From the NCBI RefSeq assembly GCF_022701295.1, contig NZ_CP033204.1, positions 4,182,501 through 4,246,500 on the forward strand: a stretch of 64,000 nt of DNA, in the 5' to 3' direction. Positions 53,902-64,000 of the stretch are shown here, piece after piece. The first letter of the stretch is position 1. Each line of letters opens with the position of its first letter. This stretch comes from Sphingopyxis sp. YF1. GTDB taxonomy: Bacteria > Pseudomonadota > Alphaproteobacteria > Sphingomonadales > Sphingomonadaceae. The notes under the pieces are model-generated. The model did not search any database and was not told where the DNA came from. It saw only the letters and a list, made by a program, of their open reading frames with translations. A program made the translations under genes and the position numbers.

Positions 53902-54840
53902 CTAGGCCCCCGGCACCCCCAGCAGTTTTGCCTGCGCGCGCAGCCGCGGTGCGGCGCCCGGATTTGCCGCGATGCCGTCCTTCAGCGCCTGCGCGGCCTT
54001 CGCGCTCTCGCCCAGCGTCATGCGACTGCGCATCAGCATGATCCAGCGGTCGACGTCGGCGGGGTTGGTCTTGAGCTTGGCTTCGAGCCCGCTCACCATG
54101 CCCTCGATCATCGCGTCCTGCTGGCCCTTGGGGAGCTGCGACGCGGCCTCCATGTCGGCGCGGCTCGGGCCCGGGATGCCGCGCGCGGCGACGGGCATCT
54201 CCTCGGCGGTCAGCGCGCGCGGCTGCGTCTTCGCCAGCCGGCCTGCGACCTCGATCTTGTGGATCGCGCCGACCTGTTCGATCGTTCGGCGCAGGTCAGC
54301 CTCCCATGGCGCGCCCTGCGGCGTGTCCTCAAGCAGCGCGAACCAGTCGGCGATCGCGCCCTTGTGGTCGCCCGCAACATCCTTCTTCACCGCGAGGAAA
54401 TAGCGCGCGCGCGGATCGCGGGGGTCGAGCGCGATCGCCTTGTCGAACGCCGCAACCGCCGCGGCGGGCATCGGATCGCGTTCGCTCGCCATCACCCGCG
54501 CCTCGCCGAGCGCCGACCACAGGCCCGCCGATCCCGACGACAGCGCGGTCGCCTTTTCATAGGCGGCGACGGCTCCGGCGAATTCGCCGAGGTCGAATCG
54601 CGCCGCGCCGAGCTGCATCCAGGCGTCGGCGCTGTTCGGTTCGGCCTTCGTCCGCGCCTCGAGCGCGGCGAGCTGGCCCGACGGGACCAGCGTCGATTCC
54701 GCGACCGGATCGCCGCCGCCGACGCCGGAATCGCGCCACACCGTATAGCCGATCGCGCCCGCCAGCAGGACGAAGGCGGCGATCAATATCGCGCCGTTGG
54801 TCCGCGTCAGTCCTCCGGCCATCTTCTTGCTCTCGCTCAT
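53902..54840 (-). CDS. TPR protein, CcmI/CycH-like
   Basis: This 312-residue protein has one N-terminal membrane anchor (NGAILIAAFVLLAGAIGYTVWRD, about 15-37) and periplasmic TPR repeats (SADAWMQLGAARFDLGEFAGAVAAYEKATAL, GLWSALGEARVM, AAFDKAIALDPRDPRARYFLAV) plus a C-terminal helical part (DRWIMLMRSRMTLGESAKAAQALKDG). This resembles the periplasmic half of CcmI/CycH, which presents apocytochrome c for haem ligation. The multihaem cytochrome genes nearby make this attractive, but the other ccm genes are not here. The start at 54840 follows GAGGGG. It is divergent from gdhA. Confidence 0.82.
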   Translation of the reverse strand: MSESKKMAGGLTRTNGAILIAAFVLLAGAIGYTVWRDSGVGGGDPVAESTLVPSGQLAALEARTKAEPNSADAWMQLGAARFDLGEFAGAVAAYEKATALSSGSAGLWSALGEARVMASERDPMPAAAVAAFDKAIALDPRDPRARYFLAVKKDVAGDHKGAIADWFALLEDTPQGAPWEADLRRTIEQVGAIHKIEVAGRLAKTQPRALTAEEMPVAARGIPGPSRADMEAASQLPKGQQDAMIEGMVSGLEAKLKTNPADVDRWIMLMRSRMTLGESAKAAQALKDGIAANPGAAPRLRAQAKLLGVPGA

Positions 54841-55000
54841 TTTTGCCCCTCTTGTGCGCGCGCGAAAAAATCGGCCGGGCACGCGCTCGCTTCTTGCCTT
54901 TGCCGAACGATGGTGTAGCCTTTGAAGGGCGAGGTCGGTCAATGACAAAATCGCGGAAAGGGGTCGCACCGAATTTTCCCGGCCAACAGGGGAGGGGTGC

Positions 55001-56356
55001 ATGGCAGTTTCGGATCACGTCGATTTCAAGACGTTCATGGAGGGTGTGTCGAAGCGCAACCCGGGCCAGCCTGAGTTCGTCCAGGCGGTGCAGGAAGTCG
55101 CCGAAGACATCTTCGATTTCATCGCCGACAAGGAAGAATATCACGCGCAGCAGATCCTGCGGCGCATCGCCGAACCCGACCGTGTCGTGTCCTTCCGCGT
55201 CTGCTGGGAGGACGACAACGGCAATATCCGCGTCCAGCGCGGGTGGCGCGTCCAGAACAACAATGCGATCGGCCCGTACAAGGGGGGCATCCGTTTCCAC
55301 CCCTCGGTGACCGAGAGCGTGCTCAAGTTCCTCGCGTTCGAACAGACGTTCAAGAATGCGCTCACCGGGCTCCCGATGGGCGGCGGCAAGGGCGGGTCGA
55401 ACTTCAACCCCAAGGGCAAGAGCGTGCGCGAGATCATGCGCTTCTGCCAGAGCTTCATGACCGAACTCTATCGCCACATCGGCGCCGACATCGACGTGCC
55501 GGCGGGCGACATCGGCGTCGGCGGGCGCGAGATCGGCTATATGTTCGGCCAGTACAAGCGCATCACCAACGAATTTACCGGGGTGCTCACCGGCAAGGGG
55601 CTCGAATGGGGCGGCTCGCTGATCCGCACCGAGGCGACGGGGTATGGCGCGGTCTATTTCCTCGCCAACATGCTCGCGGCGAAGGGGCAGGATCTTGTCG
55701 GCAAGAGCGCGGTGATCTCGGGCTCGGGCAATGTCGCGACCCACGCGGCGGAAAAGATCGTCCAATTGGGCGGCAAGGTGCTGACTTTGTCCGATTCGGG
55801 CGGTTTCATCCACGATCCCGACGGCATCACCCAGGAAAAGATCGACTGGGTGAAGGCGCACAAGACGCACCGACGCGGGCGCATCGAGGACTATGTGTCC
55901 GAGTTCAAAAGCGCGAGCTTTACCGCGGGCAAGACGCCATGGGGGGTGAAGTGCGACGTCGCGCTGCCCTGCGCGACGCAGAACGAACTGCTCGGCGACG
56001 ACGCCCGCGAACTGATCGCCAATGGCTGCATCGCTGTAAGCGAAGGCGCCAACATGCCCACCAACCTCGACGGTGTGCACGCGTTCAAACATGCGAAGAT
56101 CATGTTCGCGCCCGGCAAGGCGGCGAACGCCGGCGGGGTTGCGGTGTCGGGGCTCGAAATGAGCCAGAACAGCGGACGGCGCAGCTGGAGCGAAGGCGAG
56201 TTGCAACAGATGCTGAAAGACATCATGGACGGCATTCATTCCAGCTGCCTGACCTATGGCGATCAGGGCGACGGCTATATCGACTATGTGAAAGGCGCCA
56301 ACATCGCGGGCTTCAAAAAAGTCGCCGACGCGATGCTGGCATTCGGGGTGGTTTAA
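55001..56356 (+). CDS. gdhA: NADP-type glutamate dehydrogenase
   Basis: This 451-residue cytoplasmic enzyme interconverts glutamate with 2-oxoglutarate and ammonia. It has the dimerisation/substrate domain (GPYKGGIRFHPSVTESVLKFLAFEQTFKNALTGLPMGGGKGGSNFNPKGKS, with the catalytic Lys residues) and the nucleotide domain (VISGSGNVATHAAEKI, SDSGGFIHDPDG). Length and the S-D after beta-2 fit the hexameric NADP-dependent form. It lies 45 bp before the cytochrome unit on the same strand, so read-through is possible although the functions differ. Confidence 0.95.
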   Translation: MAVSDHVDFKTFMEGVSKRNPGQPEFVQAVQEVAEDIFDFIADKEEYHAQQILRRIAEPDRVVSFRVCWEDDNGNIRVQRGWRVQNNNAIGPYKGGIRFHPSVTESVLKFLAFEQTFKNALTGLPMGGGKGGSNFNPKGKSVREIMRFCQSFMTELYRHIGADIDVPAGDIGVGGREIGYMFGQYKRITNEFTGVLTGKGLEWGGSLIRTEATGYGAVYFLANMLAAKGQDLVGKSAVISGSGNVATHAAEKIVQLGGKVLTLSDSGGFIHDPDGITQEKIDWVKAHKTHRRGRIEDYVSEFKSASFTAGKTPWGVKCDVALPCATQNELLGDDARELIANGCIAVSEGANMPTNLDGVHAFKHAKIMFAPGKAANAGGVAVSGLEMSQNSGRRSWSEGELQQMLKDIMDGIHSSCLTYGDQGDGYIDYVKGANIAGFKKVADAMLAFGVV

Positions 56357-56401: not shown

Positions 56402-57838
56402 ATGACGACCGACGCGGTTTCAGGACGCGGCGATCGACCTTGGGCGGCGTTTGCCGCGCTCGTGCTGATGCTGGCGGCGCTTGCCGCCGCGGCGCTCGTT
56501 GCCGCCCCGCCCGCGCGCTCGCAGGGCGAGGGGGGGGCGCGCTTCACCGGCGTCGCCTCCTGTGCTGGATCGACCTGCCACGGCCGGATGGAAGGTGACG
56601 GCACGGTCGTGCGGCAGGACGAACTGATGAAATGGCAGGAACCGTCGACCCCCGGCGGTGCGCACAGCCGCGCGCAGGCCGTGCTGGGCAATGCGCGCAG
56701 CGCCTTCATCGCGCGCAACCTCGGCATCGGCGACCCGACGAGCGCGAAGCAATGCGTCGGATGCCACACCAGCGCTGCCGCGGGCGCACCCGCGTCGATG
56801 TGGGGCGACGGGGTCGGCTGCGAATCGTGCCACGGTCCGGCGGGCGGCTGGCTCGCGAGTCATTATGCCGGGGTAGGGACCAATGCCGATCCCGACGCCG
56901 AAATGCGGGGCAAGCATCTCGCCAACCTGTCGGCGGGGCTCCGCAAGCTCGAAGACCCGGTCGTGCGCGCCGGGGTGTGCGTCGATTGCCATTTCGGTGC
57001 CGCGGGCGAGGGACAGTTCGTCACCCACCGGATCATGGCTGCGGGTCATCCGCGCATTTCGTTCGAGCTCGACCTCTTCTCGTCGCTTCAGGCGCACCAC
57101 CAGGAGGATGAGGATTATGGCTGGCGCAAATTCGGTTCGGGACAGGCGCGCACCGACCATGTCCAGATGTGGGCGGTCGGCCAGGCTGCGGCGCTCGAAC
57201 GCAGCCTGTCGCTCTTCCAGTCGAAGCGCGGCACCGAAGGCGTGTTTCCCGAATTCTATTTTCTCGACTGTCACAGCTGCCACCGCCGTATCTTCGACCA
57301 GGCGAAGCCGGTGAAGACGAGCATGGACAATCCCGGACGCGACATTCCCGAAGGCATGCCGCCCTATAATGACGAAAATCTGATCATGCTGGCGGCGGCG
57401 GCGCGGATCGCGGCGCCCGGACTTGCCGACCAGCTTGCCGCGCGTACTGCCGCCTTTCACCGTGCGATGGCGGTCGACCGGACGAGTGCGGTGCAGGCCG
57501 CCGGCCAGCTTGCGCAGACGGTGACCGCGCTCAAGGGCGCCTTCGCCGCGCGCAGTTTTTCGGGCACTGACGCCTTCGCGCTCGTCGACGCGGTCTCGGC
57601 CAAGGCGATCAGCGACCGTTTCACCGATTATTCGGGGTCGCAGCAGGCGGTGATGGGGGTCGATACGCTGCTCAATTCGATGGTTTCGTCGGGACGTGTC
57701 ACCGTCGGCGCCGCCGCCGGAATCCGCGCTGATATCGACCGCGCCTACGCCGCAGTGAAGGATCCCAACGCATACAAACCCGCCGATTTCCAGGCCTCGC
57801 TGGGCAGCGCGGTGCGCGCGATCCGGGCGCTGCGCTGA
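56402..57838 (+). CDS. Exported pentahaem cytochrome c
   Basis: This 478-residue protein has a signal peptide (hydrophobic 14-38, likely cut near ARS-QGEGG) and five haem motifs: C54-AGST-CH60 (CX4CH, atypical), CVGCH 118-122, CESCH 140-144, CVDCH 193-197 and CHSCH 290-294. Distal His residues occur in GGAHSR, LASHYAG, THRIMAAGHPR and AHHQEDEDYG. The first motifs resemble the c554-type cytochrome fold. The haem-free C-terminal third is helical. It is the first gene of a four-gene unit with spacings of 7, 3 and 0 bases, and probably carries electrons through the periplasm. Confidence 0.9.
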   Translation: MTTDAVSGRGDRPWAAFAALVLMLAALAAAALVAAPPARSQGEGGARFTGVASCAGSTCHGRMEGDGTVVRQDELMKWQEPSTPGGAHSRAQAVLGNARSAFIARNLGIGDPTSAKQCVGCHTSAAAGAPASMWGDGVGCESCHGPAGGWLASHYAGVGTNADPDAEMRGKHLANLSAGLRKLEDPVVRAGVCVDCHFGAAGEGQFVTHRIMAAGHPRISFELDLFSSLQAHHQEDEDYGWRKFGSGQARTDHVQMWAVGQAAALERSLSLFQSKRGTEGVFPEFYFLDCHSCHRRIFDQAKPVKTSMDNPGRDIPEGMPPYNDENLIMLAAAARIAAPGLADQLAARTAAFHRAMAVDRTSAVQAAGQLAQTVTALKGAFAARSFSGTDAFALVDAVSAKAISDRFTDYSGSQQAVMGVDTLLNSMVSSGRVTVGAAAGIRADIDRAYAAVKDPNAYKPADFQASLGSAVRAIRALR

Positions 57839-57845
57839 GAGTGAT

Positions 57846-59861
57846 ATGACAAAAGCAAGCCGCCTCTTCCGATCGTCCGCTTTCGCCGCCATGGCGGCGC
57901 TGCTCCTGTCGTCATGCGGCGGCGGGGGTGGTGGGGGCGGCACGCCCACCCCCGCCCCGACGCCGACCCCGACGCCGACTCCCACCGGCGGGCTCTTCAC
58001 GCCGCCCGCCGCCGAATCGCTGAGCGCCGCCGACGTGCAGCAGGTGATCGCGCAGGCGGTCGGCGAAGCGCGTGCGCGCAACCGGCCGTCGATCGTCGCG
58101 GTCACCGACCGCGTCGGCAATGTGCTTGCGGTGTTCAAGATGACCGGCGCGCCCGACACGGCGGTGGTGAGCCGCAACCGCATCGGCGGACCGGCGCCGA
58201 CAGGCAGCGAAATCGGATTGCAGGGCGCGGCCATCCCCGCTGCCGCGGCGGCCATCGCAAAGGCGATCACCGGGGCCTATCTGTCGAGCGGCGGCAACGC
58301 CTTTTCGAGCCGTACCGCGAGCCAGATCGTCCAGCAGCATTTCCCCCCCGCGCCGACCACCGTCGGGCTCGAGAGCGGCCCCTTGTTCGGGGTGCAGTTC
58401 AGCCAGCTGCCCTGTTCGGACCTGTCGCGGCGCTTCGTTCCCGGCGGCGGCACGGGCGCGCTGATCGGGCCGAAGCGCTCGCCGCTCGGGCTCGCCGCCG
58501 ACGCGGGGGGCTTCCCGCTTTACAAGAATGGCGTCGTCGTCGGCGGCGTCGGCGTGATGGGGGACGGCGATTACGGCTTCGACCCCAATATCCTCGACAC
58601 CGACGCCGATGACGAGGAAGCGATCGCCTTTGCCGGCACGCAGAATTTCGCCGCACCCGAGGCGATCCGTGCCGAGCGGATCACCGTCGACGGCACCGCG
58701 CTGCGCTTCAGCGATGCGACGGCGGCGAACCTTGCGCCGCTTCAGACCAGCTTCGGTGCGATCAACGGCGTGCAGGGAGCGCTGATTGCAGTCACCGGCT
58801 ACACCGACGGCACGCTGCGCGCCGGCACCGTCTATGGCAGCGAGGCGTCGGGCATCCGTGCGAGCACCGCAGCCGAATTCTCGAACCGCGACGCCTTTGT
58901 CCTCACCGACGGCAGCGGCAATCCGCGCTACCCGATCCGCGCGGGCACCGATGGCGCGTCGGTCGCGCAGCCGCTCACCGCGGCCGAGGTGCGCGCCGTG
59001 CTGGAGGAAGCCTTCTCCGTCCTCTCCCGTGCACGCGCGCAGATCCGTCGCCCGCTCGACAGCCGGATGCAGGCGACGATCAGTCTCGTCGACACGCGCG
59101 GCGAGATATTGGGCATCGTCCGCTCGCCCGACGGCCCGATTTTCGGCACCGACGTCAGCCTGCAAAAGGCGCGCACCGCGGCTTTCTTCTCGGGCAGCCA
59201 CGCGGCGCCCGAACTGCTCGCGACCCCGGTGTTGCCGGGCGTGACCAACGTTCCGGCCTATGTCCAGCGCACGCGGACCTTCCTCGGCGATCCCGCAGCG
59301 CTCACCGGCACGATCGCCTTTGCCGACCGCTCCGGGGGCAATCTGTCGCGTCCCTATTTCCCCGACGGCGAGGTCGGGCGGCCGCCGGGGCCGCTGTCGG
59401 TCGAGCAGTCGGCGCAGTTCAGTCCCTTCGCGGTCGGGCTGCAGGTCGATCTGGTCGCACCGAATATCGTCCAGCACCTCAATTTCGTCGTCAGCGGCGG
59501 GGCGAGCCCCGACACGCCGCAGCAATGCACACAGGTCCCCGACGTCACGCCGGGGCACAAGCGCCTCGCCAACGGGATCCAGATTTTCCCGGGTTCGGTC
59601 CCGATCTATCGCGGCGGCACGCTGGTCGGGGCGATCGGTGTGTCGGGCGACGGCATCGATCAGGATGACATGGTGAGCTTCCTCGGGCTCCACAACGGCG
59701 GCGCGCGCGCCGGCGGTATCGGTAATGCCGCGCCCGCGATCCGTGCCGACCGCGTCGTGGTCAACCTCGCGGGTGGTGCCACCGCGCGGCTGCGCTATGT
59801 GTCCTGCCCCTTCGCGCCCTTCCTCGATACGGCGCAGCAAAATGTCTGCGACGGATTGTAA
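57846..59861 (+). CDS. Lipoprotein with two GlcG/HbpS-like domains
   Basis: This 671-residue protein starts with a lipoprotein signal peptide (AFAAMAALLLSSC, Cys24) followed by a Gly run and a Thr-Pro linker. It contains two GlcG/HbpS (DUF336) folds: one around 60-260 (AVTDRVGNVLAVFKMTGAPDTAVV, GGFPLYKNGVVVGGVGVMGDGDYG) and one around 390-650 (SLVDTRGEILGIVRSPDG, GSVPIYRGGTLVGAIGVSGDGIDQDDM). Each fold is split by a long insert. HbpS proteins bind haem and iron. Here it may serve as a cell-surface haem-binding partner of the adjacent cytochromes (inferred). Confidence 0.85.
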   Translation: MTKASRLFRSSAFAAMAALLLSSCGGGGGGGGTPTPAPTPTPTPTPTGGLFTPPAAESLSAADVQQVIAQAVGEARARNRPSIVAVTDRVGNVLAVFKMTGAPDTAVVSRNRIGGPAPTGSEIGLQGAAIPAAAAAIAKAITGAYLSSGGNAFSSRTASQIVQQHFPPAPTTVGLESGPLFGVQFSQLPCSDLSRRFVPGGGTGALIGPKRSPLGLAADAGGFPLYKNGVVVGGVGVMGDGDYGFDPNILDTDADDEEAIAFAGTQNFAAPEAIRAERITVDGTALRFSDATAANLAPLQTSFGAINGVQGALIAVTGYTDGTLRAGTVYGSEASGIRASTAAEFSNRDAFVLTDGSGNPRYPIRAGTDGASVAQPLTAAEVRAVLEEAFSVLSRARAQIRRPLDSRMQATISLVDTRGEILGIVRSPDGPIFGTDVSLQKARTAAFFSGSHAAPELLATPVLPGVTNVPAYVQRTRTFLGDPAALTGTIAFADRSGGNLSRPYFPDGEVGRPPGPLSVEQSAQFSPFAVGLQVDLVAPNIVQHLNFVVSGGASPDTPQQCTQVPDVTPGHKRLANGIQIFPGSVPIYRGGTLVGAIGVSGDGIDQDDMVSFLGLHNGGARAGGIGNAAPAIRADRVVVNLAGGATARLRYVSCPFAPFLDTAQQNVCDGL

Positions 59862-59864
59862 GCG

Positions 59865-61844
59865 ATGAGCCTTGCGGGGAGCAGCCTTTGGCCGATCATC
59901 GCCAGCCTGGCGGCGCAGGGCGCACCGGGTGATGCGGCTGCGCCCGATGTCGTCGATCCGCCCGCCGCGACGCCCGAAACGCCCGCGACCGACCCGTCGA
60001 TCGACGACCTCACGCCGCCCCCGCCGCCGGTCGACTGGCGCGAGATGGTGAGCGACGACCTGATCACCCAGATCATCGACGGCCGCCGCCGTCCCGGTTA
60101 TCGGCCCGATCTTCCCGACCGGCTGACGCAGGACAATGCCGGTGCGCTGCGGCCGCCGCCGCCGGAGGCCTTTCCGGGGATCCAGGACCAGCTTCCGGTT
60201 CCCGATCGCTGGCGCCTGATCGAAAGCCTGGGGGTGGTCAAGGAGCGCTGGTTCGACCCCTATCACCAGAATACCTACAAGGGCGACCGCGCGCTCTGCA
60301 TCGCGACCGAGGAGGAGCAGGAGCGTCGTGCGCGGCTCGGCGAGGCGCGCTGCAAGACGCCCAAATTCCTGGGGCTCAAGGGCGACGACTGGTTCTTCGT
60401 GGCCAATGCGGTGTCGGATACGGTGTTCGAACCGCGCACTTTTCCGATTCCGGTCGGTGTCCAGACGACTTCGCGCCCGGGCAGCCTCGACGTGTTCGGC
60501 AAGAACCGCAGTTTCGTTGCGGCGCAGACCTTCATCGCGGGTTTCGCGCTGATCAAGGGATCGACCGCGTTCAAGCCGCCCGACGTCGAATATCGCCTGA
60601 CCCTTGCGTATCAGGCCAACTATGTCGATGTGCCCGAACGACGCGTGCTCGACGTGCGTCCGTCAAAGGCGAGCCATCGCTACGACAGCTTCCTCGGCGT
60701 GCAGGAACTGTTCGTCGACAAGCATCTCGGCAACACGTCGGATCGTTACGACTTTTATTCGGTGCGCGTCGGTATCCAGCCGTTCCAGAGCGATTTCCGC
60801 GGTTTCCTGTTCAACGACAGCCAACTCGGCATTCGCCTGTTCGGCAACCGCGACAACAATCGCTTTCAATATAATCTCGCGGCTTTCTGGCGGCTCGAAA
60901 AGGACACCAACAGCGGCCTCAACGATATCACCCAGACTCCGCGCAGCGACTTCATCTTCACCGGCAATCTCTATCGCCAGGATTTCCCGGTCGTCGGGCT
61001 GACCAGTCAGGTCAGCGTGACGTATAATATGAATCGCGAAAAGGACGATGTGCAGATCGATCACAACGGCTTCCCGGTGCGACCGGCGCTGCTCGGCGAC
61101 CTGCGCGGGCGCGCCTATGACGTCGTCTACCTCGGGTACAGCGCCGACGGGCGCATTGGGCGGATCAACCTGACCGCCAGCCTCTACGCGGCACTGGGCG
61201 AGGACCGGAACAGCTTCTTCACCAGCAAGCCTGCCGAGATTCGCGCGGGCTTCGGGGCGGTCGAACTCAGCTACGACCACGACTGGATGCGCTTCCGTCT
61301 CTCGGGGCTCTACGCGACCGGCGACGGCGACCCCTATAACAACACCGAGGGGGGCTTCGACGCGATCTTCGAAAACCCGATCTTCGGCGGCGCCGACACG
61401 AGTTACTGGATTCGCCAGACGATTCCCTTTGCGGGCGGCGGGCGCGTGATCTCGATCAACGGGCGCAACGGCATATTGAATTCGCTGCGCTCGTCGAAGG
61501 AAGAAGGGCAGTCGAATTTCAACAACCCCGGCACGATCTTCCTCGGGGCCGGCGCCGATTTCGACCTCTCGCCGCAGTTCCGCATCAGCACCAACCTCAA
61601 CCATCTCTGGTTCGAGAACACCAGTTCGCTGCAGGCGCTGCGCATGGAGGGTTCGATCCCCACGGACATCGGCTGGGACCTGTCGGTCGCGACGATCTGG
61701 CGGCCCAAGGCGACGCAGAATATCGTCGGGCGCCTGAGCGCCGCGGTTCTGCTGCCCGGCGAGGGGTTCAAGGATTTGTTCGAAAACAAGCAGCGCGAGG
61801 ACGCCTATGTGTCGATCCTCGCCAATCTGATTTTGAGTTTCTAG
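59865..61844 (+). CDS. Outer-membrane beta-barrel protein of cytochrome cluster
   Basis: This 659-residue protein has alternating amphipathic strands with aromatic girdles through residues about 180-659 (RYDFYSVRVGIQPFQSDFRGFLFNDSQLGIRLFG, MRFRLSGLYATGDGDPYNN, QFRISTNLNHLWFEN) and ends in ILSF, as barrel proteins do. The N-terminal 70 residues are Pro/Ala/Asp rich and the signal peptide is weak, lacking a basic n-region; no better start exists because a stop lies 3 bases upstream. Set between multihaem cytochromes, it may form the pore of an outer-membrane electron conduit. Confidence 0.8.
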   Translation: MSLAGSSLWPIIASLAAQGAPGDAAAPDVVDPPAATPETPATDPSIDDLTPPPPPVDWREMVSDDLITQIIDGRRRPGYRPDLPDRLTQDNAGALRPPPPEAFPGIQDQLPVPDRWRLIESLGVVKERWFDPYHQNTYKGDRALCIATEEEQERRARLGEARCKTPKFLGLKGDDWFFVANAVSDTVFEPRTFPIPVGVQTTSRPGSLDVFGKNRSFVAAQTFIAGFALIKGSTAFKPPDVEYRLTLAYQANYVDVPERRVLDVRPSKASHRYDSFLGVQELFVDKHLGNTSDRYDFYSVRVGIQPFQSDFRGFLFNDSQLGIRLFGNRDNNRFQYNLAAFWRLEKDTNSGLNDITQTPRSDFIFTGNLYRQDFPVVGLTSQVSVTYNMNREKDDVQIDHNGFPVRPALLGDLRGRAYDVVYLGYSADGRIGRINLTASLYAALGEDRNSFFTSKPAEIRAGFGAVELSYDHDWMRFRLSGLYATGDGDPYNNTEGGFDAIFENPIFGGADTSYWIRQTIPFAGGGRVISINGRNGILNSLRSSKEEGQSNFNNPGTIFLGAGADFDLSPQFRISTNLNHLWFENTSSLQALRMEGSIPTDIGWDLSVATIWRPKATQNIVGRLSAAVLLPGEGFKDLFENKQREDAYVSILANLILSF

Positions 61845-64000
61845 ATGACGCTACGCAAGCTCTTCGCCCTTCTCGCCTTCGTCCTGCTGGGCGCGAGCCT
61901 TGCCGTGTCGATCGGGCGTGCCGCCGAGGGCGAAAAGCCCGTGAAGGTCGATTATCGCTTCAGCCCGCCCGCGCCGCGCGAGCAGCCCGGTACGACCTTC
62001 GAGGCGCGCGAGGCGGCGGTGATGGCGAAGTCGCAGGGCTGCTACAGCTGTCACACCCAGACCGACGCGCCGTCGATGCACGTCACCCCGGCGGTGCAAC
62101 TGGGTTGCACCGACTGCCACGGCGGCGACGCCGAGTCTCCCGCGGCGTTCGGCAAACCCGAGCTCGGTTACGACAACCCCTATAATCGCGCGGCGATGAA
62201 GGTCGCGCATCCGCAGCCGACGCTGCCGAAAAGCTGGGGCGACAGTTCGGCGAACCCCAAGCGCAGCTACACGTTGCTGAACAAGGAAGCGCCTGAATAT
62301 ATCCGCTTCGTCAACCCGAGCGACTATCGCGTCGCGCGCGAGGCGTGCGGGGCCTGCCATCTCGAAACGATCGAGGCGGCCGAACGTTCGCTGATGTCGA
62401 CCGGCGCGATGCTGTGGGGCGGCGCGGCGTATAACAATGGCATCGTTCCGTATAAAAACTACATCTTCGGCGAAGCCTATACGCGCAGCGGCGATCCCGC
62501 GTGCATCCTGTCGCCGACGACCTCGATGACGGCCGAGGAATATAAGAAGGCATGCGACCCGAAGGTCCCGTTCGACAAGATCTTGACCGATAAGGAACGC
62601 GCGCGCGGCGCGCTCGCCAAGATGTACCCGCTGCCGCGCTGGAGCGTGATTCCGCCGGGTGATGTCTTCCGGGTGTTCGAGCGCGGCGGGCGCAACATCA
62701 ACACGCAATTTCCCGAAATCGGCTTACCCAACCCGACGGGCAGCATCCAGCGGCTCGAGGAGCCCGGCCGCCCCGACCTCAAGCAGTCGAACCGCGGCCC
62801 TGGCACCGGGTTGCGCGTGTCGATCCCCGTGCTCAACATCCACAAGACGCGCCTCAACGATCCGCTGATGTGGTTCATGGGCACCAACGACCAGCCGGGC
62901 GACTATCGCCATTCGGGCTGCTCGGGGTGTCACGTCATCTATGCCAACGATCGCGAGCCGCGCCACAGCCTGACCTATTCGGCCTATGGCCGTGATGGCG
63001 AGACCGCGACGGTCGACCCGACGATCAGGGACCGTGCGTGGAAGCCCGAAGGGGACGATCATGGGAAAGGCAAGGACAAGAAGGGCGGCGGTCACGTCGA
63101 TACCGCGAACCATGCCCCCGATCCCGACAAGCATGGCGCACTGATCGACCCGGCCGACGCGAAGGCAGGACCGCAGGCGAAGCCGAAACGGCTCGAATCG
63201 GGGCATCCGATCAAGCATGTCTTCACGCGCTCGATCCCGACGTCGCAGTGCATGACCTGCCACATGCACCAGCCGAACATCTTCCTGAATTCCTACCTCG
63301 GCTACACGATGTGGGATTATGAATCGGACGCGCCGCAGATGTGGCCGGGACCGGACAACAGCGCGCCGCGCCCGCCGGGGATGAGCGACGCGGATTATCA
63401 GAAGAAATACAAGCAGCAGCATTACCCGACGGCGGCCGAAGTCCACAAGGTGCTCGAACGCAATCCCGAGGGTGCGTCGGCGCGCGGGCTGTGGGCCGAT
63501 GTCGAATTCCTGCGCGACGTCTATGACGTCAACGACAGCAACAAGGACACCCAGTTCGCCGATTATCACGGGCATGGCTGGAACTTCCGCGGCATCTTCA
63601 AGCGCGACCGCGAGGGTAATCTGCTGACCGCCGACGGCAATATGGCGACCTATGGTACCGATACCGCCAACATCGTCGATCCGAAGGATCCCGAAAAATG
63701 GCGCAAGAGCTGCAGCCATTACAGTGACCCCAAGCAGCGCGACCTGTGCCTGTCGAGCGCCGATCCCGGCAGGCCGGGGGTGGAGGGCAAGTTCGTGCCG
63801 CCGGGGATCAACCCCGGCAAGGCGGTCCACATGATGGACATCCACGCCGAAAAGGGCATGCAGTGCGCCGATTGCCATTTCGCGCAGGACAGTCATGGCA
63901 ACGGCTATATCCAGGGCGAGGTCGCGAACGCGGTCGAGATCGGCTGCAAGGATTGCCACGGCACCGTCGACGCGCTGCCCAATCTGCTGACCTCGAACGT
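61845..64000 (+). CDS. Multihaem cytochrome c, at least seven haems, cut by window end
   Basis: The ATG follows directly on the stop of the barrel gene, and the frame stays open for at least 718 codons to the window edge. A signal anchor or peptide (LFALLAFVLLGASLAVSIG) is followed by haem motifs CYSCH (66), CTDCH (88), CGACH (168), CSGCH (359), CMTCH (469), CADCH (674) and CKDCH (701). Many further His residues can be axial ligands (CHMHQPN, HSGCSGCH). A His/Gly/Lys-rich linker lies near residue 405-430. The size and haem number suggest a periplasmic or surface electron carrier. The C-terminus is not seen. Confidence 0.92.
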   Translation, partial: MTLRKLFALLAFVLLGASLAVSIGRAAEGEKPVKVDYRFSPPAPREQPGTTFEAREAAVMAKSQGCYSCHTQTDAPSMHVTPAVQLGCTDCHGGDAESPAAFGKPELGYDNPYNRAAMKVAHPQPTLPKSWGDSSANPKRSYTLLNKEAPEYIRFVNPSDYRVAREACGACHLETIEAAERSLMSTGAMLWGGAAYNNGIVPYKNYIFGEAYTRSGDPACILSPTTSMTAEEYKKACDPKVPFDKILTDKERARGALAKMYPLPRWSVIPPGDVFRVFERGGRNINTQFPEIGLPNPTGSIQRLEEPGRPDLKQSNRGPGTGLRVSIPVLNIHKTRLNDPLMWFMGTNDQPGDYRHSGCSGCHVIYANDREPRHSLTYSAYGRDGETATVDPTIRDRAWKPEGDDHGKGKDKKGGGHVDTANHAPDPDKHGALIDPADAKAGPQAKPKRLESGHPIKHVFTRSIPTSQCMTCHMHQPNIFLNSYLGYTMWDYESDAPQMWPGPDNSAPRPPGMSDADYQKKYKQQHYPTAAEVHKVLERNPEGASARGLWADVEFLRDVYDVNDSNKDTQFADYHGHGWNFRGIFKRDREGNLLTADGNMATYGTDTANIVDPKDPEKWRKSCSHYSDPKQRDLCLSSADPGRPGVEGKFVPPGINPGKAVHMMDIHAEKGMQCADCHFAQDSHGNGYIQGEVANAVEIGCKDCHGTVDALPNLLTSN

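Follow-up and report, generated by a model that had tools for sequence, protein, structure and literature searches.

The window analysed here is a 64,000-nucleotide stretch of the genome of Sphingopyxis sp. YF1, lying within a single contig of 4.37 Mb, and the subject of the work is a group of four genes towards its end, designated cytA (56402..57838), hbpS (57846..59861), barrel (59865..61844) and cytB (61845..64000, and on beyond the end of the window to what would be position 66176). A preliminary description, made from the letters of the window, proposed that these genes encode a pentahaem cytochrome, a lipoprotein with two HbpS/GlcG domains, an outer-membrane beta-barrel and a second cytochrome with at least seven haems, and that they form one functional unit, possibly an electron conduit. 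Their coordinates were confirmed, as were the intergenic gaps of 7, 3 and 0 bases, with all four genes on the plus strand.

The products were then compared with Pfam families and with the sequences of their relatives. CytA matches PF13435 (cytochrome c554-like) with 34.5 bits against a cut-off of 20.8, and has the five haem motifs attributed to it, four of them CX2CH and one CX4CH. Six additional histidines outside the motifs are invariant and a seventh is kept in 71 of 72 aligned relatives, of which a single one carries a lipobox-like motif; to judge from these features, CytA is probably a soluble periplasmic protein. The hbpS product matches PF03928 (HbpS/GlcG-like) in two stretches, with 71.3 bits against a cut-off of 25, in keeping with the two domains first described; it contains no haem c motif, and a lipobox-like motif is found within the first 45 residues in 67 of 70 family members. 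Its best solved relative in a sequence search of the PDB is EfgA, a formaldehyde sensor, indicating that the HbpS-like domain need not bind haem.

The assignment of the third product as an outer-membrane beta-barrel was likewise upheld. It ends in phenylalanine (77 of 78 relatives have F or Y as their last residue), was modelled with 18 strands, and has an N-terminal region of about 170 residues, partly conserved, that lies outside the barrel; the Pfam search matched it to no family. Reading past the window raised the haem count of CytB to ten CX2CH motifs, seven of which fall within the window, in a protein of 1,443 residues that ends in LVIVD repeats. Its N-terminus appears signal-like by eye, no lipobox-like motif was found in any of 80 relatives with their starts as called, and 14 non-motif histidines, spread over residues 27-1060, are conserved in at least 70 of 71 sequences. 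Pfam recognised no catalytic domain in either cytochrome of the locus.

To examine conservation of the four genes, 84,980 species genomes were scanned with a pattern; 317 stretches encoding a CytB relative were returned, and the best 80 of the 317 were analysed. Four genes in the same order and on one strand were found in 70 of these 80 loci, the other ten being broken off by contig ends. The median gaps in the 70 loci are 4, 3 and 1 bases, and the three gaps lie within 20 bases either way in 63, 54 and 57 of them, respectively. Non-conservation of the gene order was thereby tested and excluded, and the proposal that the genes form one unit is supported, their order being kept in every locus in which all four are readable. 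CytA has five haem motifs in all 70 loci where it can be read, and CytB has ten in all 80 except L039, with nine, and L064, with three in a broken open reading frame; since these numbers are kept across the 80 loci, the haem-motif counts are not a product of chance. Within the genus, cytB was detected in 33 of the 35 other Sphingopyxis genomes searched, two of the 33 having it in pieces; the nearest named relatives, among the matches listed, are from Sphingopyxis. The gene is also present on thirteen plasmid records, twelve from Sphingobium and one from Sphingopyxis. Two protein searches with CytB gave at least 6,071 and at least 7,243 matches at E ≤ 0.001, sets that may overlap and whose members need not all be orthologues; the labels among the matches listed are hypothetical protein, LVIVD repeat, multiheme c-type cytochrome and cytochrome c554 family. 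The hosts are not all strict aerobes: the cluster is carried (L048) by a strain of Sphingopyxis granuli other than TFA, and strain TFA is described as nitrate-respiring in the part of PMC4741004 available to us.

A second gene set and its association with the locus

A second, inner-membrane gene set was found to accompany the four genes. In 24 of the 80 loci, all of them from outside Sphingopyxis, it lies 3' of cytB in convergent orientation, with the gene for a cytochrome bearing an FHA-like domain (the FHA-cytochrome) starting 0.9 to 3.3 kb past cytB; in one further locus (L078) the set is present in part. It is not nearby in any of the 36 Sphingopyxis-like loci among the same 80, and in the host genome it occupies positions 2,603,488-2,609,672, 1.6 Mb away from the four genes. 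The set encodes an oxidoreductase, a small membrane protein resembling cytochrome b561, the FHA-cytochrome and a metallophosphoesterase. The oxidoreductase, of about 815-930 residues, has a pyridine-nucleotide-disulphide oxidoreductase part, whose folds are of the FAD/NAD(P) type, a pair of cyclic-nucleotide-binding (cNMP-binding) domains and a 4Fe-4S part. In an alignment of 25 sequences both nucleotide-fold glycine motifs are present and 18 cysteines are kept in at least 24, sixteen of which make up four iron-sulfur sets; the closest families are YpdA and thioredoxin reductase, whose cut-offs are not reached. The membrane protein, of about 291-297 residues, has invariant histidines at 107, 121, 131, 275 and 289 in 26 of 26 sequences, four of which form two H-x13-H pairs (H107/H121 and H275/H289). 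It matches PF01292 (cytochrome b561) at E ~5e-4, below the cut-off and beside weaker unrelated matches, and no ferric-reductase family in Pfam was matched.

The FHA-cytochrome has an N-terminal FHA-like domain, one membrane span as judged by eye, and ten haem motifs, the last in all 24 loci, the host genome and Colwellia. The FHA part scores above the PF00498 cut-off in the Sphingobium protein and just below it in that of Novosphingobium; in the host genome the only Pfam match is a weak one to the related PF18221, and a solved Mutator 2 FHA chain is matched at E 0.005. When CytA, HbpS, the barrel, CytB, the FHA-cytochrome and the profiles A1 and A3 were searched against PDB sequences, any matches were short and local. 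The host genome and 25 of the 80 loci have the metallophosphoesterase gene, which stands beside that for the FHA-cytochrome; its product is closest to the cyclic-nucleotide phosphodiesterases SpdA and CpdA, below their cut-offs. Genes for CHASE2 cyclases lie near the cluster in four loci (L078, L090, L097 and L098); L126 has a cyclase-like gene there, and L137 and L138 have genes for CHASE2 proteins. In most of the loci read there is no cyclase in the vicinity.

The association between the two gene sets was examined in 296 genomes of the host order, Sphingomonadales, the same genomes being used for every protein. CytB gave 76 matches, including a weak, partial one in G119 (E 2e-8), the FHA-cytochrome 78, of which three are weak (G200, G217 and G275, E 3e-4), and the oxidoreductase 75 at E ≤ 1e-60. 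With the four weak matches set aside the three lists are identical, such that 75 genomes have all three proteins and 221 have none. The distance between the genes for CytB and the FHA-cytochrome is at most 12 kb in 40 of these 75 genomes; in the other 35 it is greater, or the genes are on different contigs, indicating that close linkage alone does not explain their co-occurrence. Fourteen of the 75 are Sphingopyxis genomes, and in these the two genes are close only in G147 and apart in the other 13. Presence and absence are mixed within this genus, with Sphingopyxis G014 and G016 having none of the three proteins, and both states were also seen, among the matches listed, in genera g23, g24, g25, g27 and g36.

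More distant relatives were sought in 398 genomes of the phylum, 11 of which are positive for cytB, three of them outside the host family, and in 274 genomes of the class Gammaproteobacteria, with 12 positive; in these samples the gene is thus rare beyond the host family. Twelve gammaproteobacterial loci from 11 of the 12 positive genomes were read, G731 being left out. The FHA-cytochrome gene adjoins hbpS in all nine loci with sequence past hbpS; the b561-like gene follows in eight of the nine, the contig of the ninth coming to an end, and the oxidoreductase gene comes after it in six. After cytB comes cytA in eight of the twelve loci; the contigs of L144 and L145 stop shortly beyond cytB. 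In Colwellia echini (G670) the genes for the oxidoreductase, b561-like protein, FHA-cytochrome, HbpS, barrel, CytB and CytA are contiguous in that order on one strand. The layout ranges from two gene sets far apart in 13 of 14 Sphingopyxis genomes, through convergent neighbours in many other sphingomonads, to one cluster in Gammaproteobacteria. On the evidence of co-occurrence and, in Gammaproteobacteria, of adjacency, the cytochrome locus and the second gene set belong together.

Proposed route of electrons and alternative readings

The reading favoured here, given a probability of roughly 0.6, is that an electron-transfer chain, gated by a cyclic nucleotide, crosses the envelope from the inside of the cell to an acceptor outside it, and that the four genes encode its outer half. 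Electrons would enter from NAD(P)H through the FAD and the four [4Fe-4S] clusters of the oxidoreductase, cross the inner membrane on two b haems held by the H-x13-H pairs, an arrangement known from NADPH oxidases and ferric reductases, and pass to the decahaem FHA-cytochrome and from there to pentahaem CytA. CytA would then deliver them to an outer-membrane assembly of the barrel, the HbpS lipoprotein and decahaem CytB, which would hand them to an oxidised metal, a humic quinone or another oxidant outside. The 14 conserved non-motif histidines of CytB, together with the seven of CytA, suggest that all haems may have a second (bis-His) ligand, as in electron wires. With a lipobox in most HbpS relatives and none in those of CytB, the lipoprotein may be what anchors the assembly. 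Cyclic-nucleotide control is suggested by the two cNMP-binding domains, the phosphodiesterase-like gene and the CHASE2 and cyclase genes; the nucleotide would open or close the entry step, being supplied in some genomes by the nearby CHASE2 cyclase and removed by the neighbouring phosphodiesterase, and the FHA domain would add control through threonine phosphorylation. We infer both the crossing of the outer membrane and the direction of flow, outward flow being preferred in view of the resemblance of the entry enzyme to NAD(P)H oxidoreductases. A more specific proposal is put forward more tentatively, namely a signal-gated wire across two membranes, with 25 c haems, fed by NAD(P)H as opposed to quinol and switched by a cyclic nucleotide and by FHA phosphopeptide binding, which would be a bacterial counterpart of NADPH oxidase delivering electrons at the cell surface.

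With regard to the conduit first proposed, the unit itself is conserved and forms half of a larger system whose inner half lies 1.6 Mb away; that electrons would cross the outer membrane is plausible, and several observations weigh against the favoured reading. The structure model of the barrel (18 strands, the number of AlgE and not that of MtrB, mean predicted local distance difference test score (pLDDT) 62, predicted template modelling score (pTM) 0.64) finds its best solved matches in AlgE and OprD-type solute channels, such that an early objection, that the barrel might be a substrate-specific porin, stands in part. The model of CytB is too poor (pLDDT 53, pTM 0.36) for a path along its haems to be followed, and CytB, lacking a lipobox unlike MtrC, is only a putative surface protein. 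The FHA-cytochrome is missing from the sequence examined in 19 of the 44 non-Sphingopyxis loci, partly through contig ends. Among the gammaproteobacterial loci, cytA was not found beside cytB in L136 and L141, nor the oxidoreductase gene beside the b561-like gene in L137 and L138. The co-occurrence counts, and the p value of 3e-72 that Fisher's test gives for them, ignore shared descent. To our knowledge such a route has not been reported to serve extracellular reduction, and no such account was encountered in the literature searched.

In one alternative the proteins form a periplasmic redox enzyme system, with electrons from NAD(P)H reducing a small periplasmic substrate and the barrel serving as an ordinary channel for substrate or product, no electrons crossing the outer membrane. 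The AlgE and OprD-type channels nearest the top of the matches listed in the structure comparison share 9-14% identity with the barrel, and the AlgE family, PF13372, has no match in the window's barrel at E ≤ 1 and is matched by 4 of 42 barrel family members, at best with E 0.0088. Unlike those channels, the barrel has cytochrome genes as its neighbours, and these cytochromes are the ones without a catalytic domain recognised by Pfam; moreover, the conserved extra histidines suggest wiring over catalysis, and the size of the barrel fits those of porin-cytochrome (Pcc) conduits. A purely periplasmic system is hence regarded as unlikely, though deserving of serious consideration.

Among characterised systems, the Pcc conduits of Geobacter (OmbB-OmaB-OmcB) likewise have clustered genes for a barrel, a periplasmic multihaem cytochrome and a second, large one. 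According to the part of PMC4245776 available to us, Pcc barrels have 18-22 strands and Pcc periplasmic cytochromes 5-14 haems, ranges that include the 18-strand barrel model, itself of modest confidence, and five-haem CytA, the likeness being one of counts and composition; the idea that 18 strands alone would rule out a conduit was dropped on the same grounds. Unlike the Geobacter conduits, the present system adds the HbpS lipoprotein, has a large cytochrome with LVIVD repeats and no lipobox, and goes with an NAD(P)H-type oxidoreductase bearing nucleotide-binding domains.

True membership of the MtrCAB/PioAB family was also considered. The general plan of barrel plus periplasmic and large cytochromes is shared with MtrCAB, PioAB and MtoAB, and MtrB is absent from the 50 matches listed in the barrel structure comparison, which excludes nothing. 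However, PF11854 (MtrB_PioB) has no match at E ≤ 1 in 42 barrels (that of the window and 41 relatives) and none above the cut-off in the genome, and CytA has five haem motifs in all members read in place of the ten of its periplasmic counterpart. In those systems, furthermore, the surface cytochrome is itself a lipoprotein, MtrC having a lipobox, whereas here that character belongs to HbpS. Family membership is thus given virtually no credence, and the first impression, that the sequence type differs from those of known conduits, is supported with regard to the MtrB_PioB model. A local likeness to ExtM and ExtN, from selenite and tellurite reduction operons, is confined to about 50 CytB residues around two haem motifs, the scores of 68.2 and 25.5 bits falling far short of the 800 and 200 required.

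At the inner membrane, the core of NADPH oxidases and ferric reductases has two histidine pairs 13-14 residues apart, a feature shared with the small membrane protein, which would similarly pass electrons across the membrane from a cytosolic flavoenzyme. In contrast to those enzymes, the flavin and iron-sulfur domains are here on a separate protein, and no family profile is matched above its cut-off.

The direction of flow assumed for the chain could feasibly be reversed, with Fe(II), Mn(II), a reduced sulfur compound or another donor outside the cell being oxidised and its electrons passed into the inner-membrane haems. Conduits of similar composition, Mto and Pio, oxidise Fe(II). However, the oxidoreductase partner, with its resemblance to YpdA and thioredoxin reductase and its four iron-sulfur sets, is as expected of a protein that NAD(P)H supplies with electrons. 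None of the few neighbouring genes scanned, a small sample, could be recognised as belonging to lithotrophy. Nothing was found pointing in particular to either the metal or the sulfur donor proposed earlier, and an inward conduit is considered improbable. Still less probable is an assimilatory role, in which ferric iron would be reduced at the surface, or iron released from haem, for nutrition, the HbpS-like lipoprotein binding haem. The PF03928 domain is in its favour; set against it are the relationship to EfgA, by which haem binding is not required, the expense of 25 haems for supplying iron, and the lack of any recognised iron transporter among the few neighbouring genes scanned.

The proposed export chain, then, has an outer part that is classed here as a variant of the porin-cytochrome conduits, one not described in the literature searched, and an inner half that, with its control, fits none of the families tested. 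No description of either the four-gene system or the inner half was found in that literature; PMC11475568, a scan for multihaem clusters in ~60,000 bacterial assemblies, does not name sphingomonads in its main text as available to us, and its supplements may include such loci. Were the favoured reading correct, common bacteria of soil, fresh water and sea, including pollutant-degrading genera, would have a surface electron outlet that is missed by searches with Mtr models, and extracellular electron transfer would have a direct tie both to NAD(P)H and to signalling by cyclic nucleotides. Electron export would also extend to sphingomonads and marine Gammaproteobacteria, which are not usually counted as electroactive. 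In the meantime, a working hypothesis is provided for many proteins currently annotated as hypothetical.

Neighbouring genes and variant loci

A gene for a CcmI-like TPR protein lies close by, as previously described, on the minus strand at 53902..55002 (PF23914, TPR_CcmH_CycH, 59.4 bits), with its true start probably near 54843 as judged by eye. It tracks the system: at E ≤ 1e-25 none of the 75 genomes with the system lacks it, and it occurs in seven of the 221 without. The E values in those seven, from 1e-26 to 2e-54, overlap with the weakest of the 75 (G151, E 2e-29), which makes the link softer. The protein is possibly a dedicated cytochrome-maturation partner of the system, a role suggested by its family and distribution.

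Immediately 5' of cytA, and on its strand, is a glutamate dehydrogenase gene (55001-56356 of the window), whose relatives adjoin cytA in the Sphingorhabdus loci L080, L084 and L089 and in L082; another is located near cytA in the gammaproteobacterial locus L139. This neighbour may hint at a metabolic connection with NAD(P)H supply. In L063 (1205-4403), Pfam identified a thiamine pyrophosphate (TPP)-dependent enzyme and an aldehyde dehydrogenase upstream of the cluster, and an aldehyde-dehydrogenase-like gene with 26-29% identity to PutA is found near the cluster in L126 (1488-2921) and several other loci. Glutamate dehydrogenase, PutA, the TPP enzyme and aldehyde dehydrogenase were each considered as partners of the system and dropped, since the neighbours are not constant.

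On the 3' side of cytB there is an open reading frame on the same strand, acyltransferase-like by eye, of uncertain start and at least 212 bases downstream, and beyond cytB there is also a RelA/SpoT gene on the opposite strand; both look unrelated to the system. After cytB in L002 (9777-10410), apparent inverted repeats were noticed on reading, of a type recurrent in sphingomonad genomes.

Variant arrangements were seen among the more distant loci. In the alphaproteobacterial locus L126 a phosphodiesterase gene and the cyclase-like gene stand beside cytB, and in L127, also alphaproteobacterial, a fragment at the edge of the sequence matches the FHA-cytochrome upstream of cytA, with glutamate dehydrogenase between cytA and hbpS. 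One gammaproteobacterial genome (G801) contains two copies of the cluster, L137 and L138, in both of which a CHASE2 protein gene adjoins the b561-like gene in place of that for the oxidoreductase, a cyclase domain being visible in L138. Lastly, a second ten-haem open reading frame and an iron-sulfur open reading frame are convergent on cytB in L136 (3467-8519), and are perhaps a paralogous inner-membrane set.

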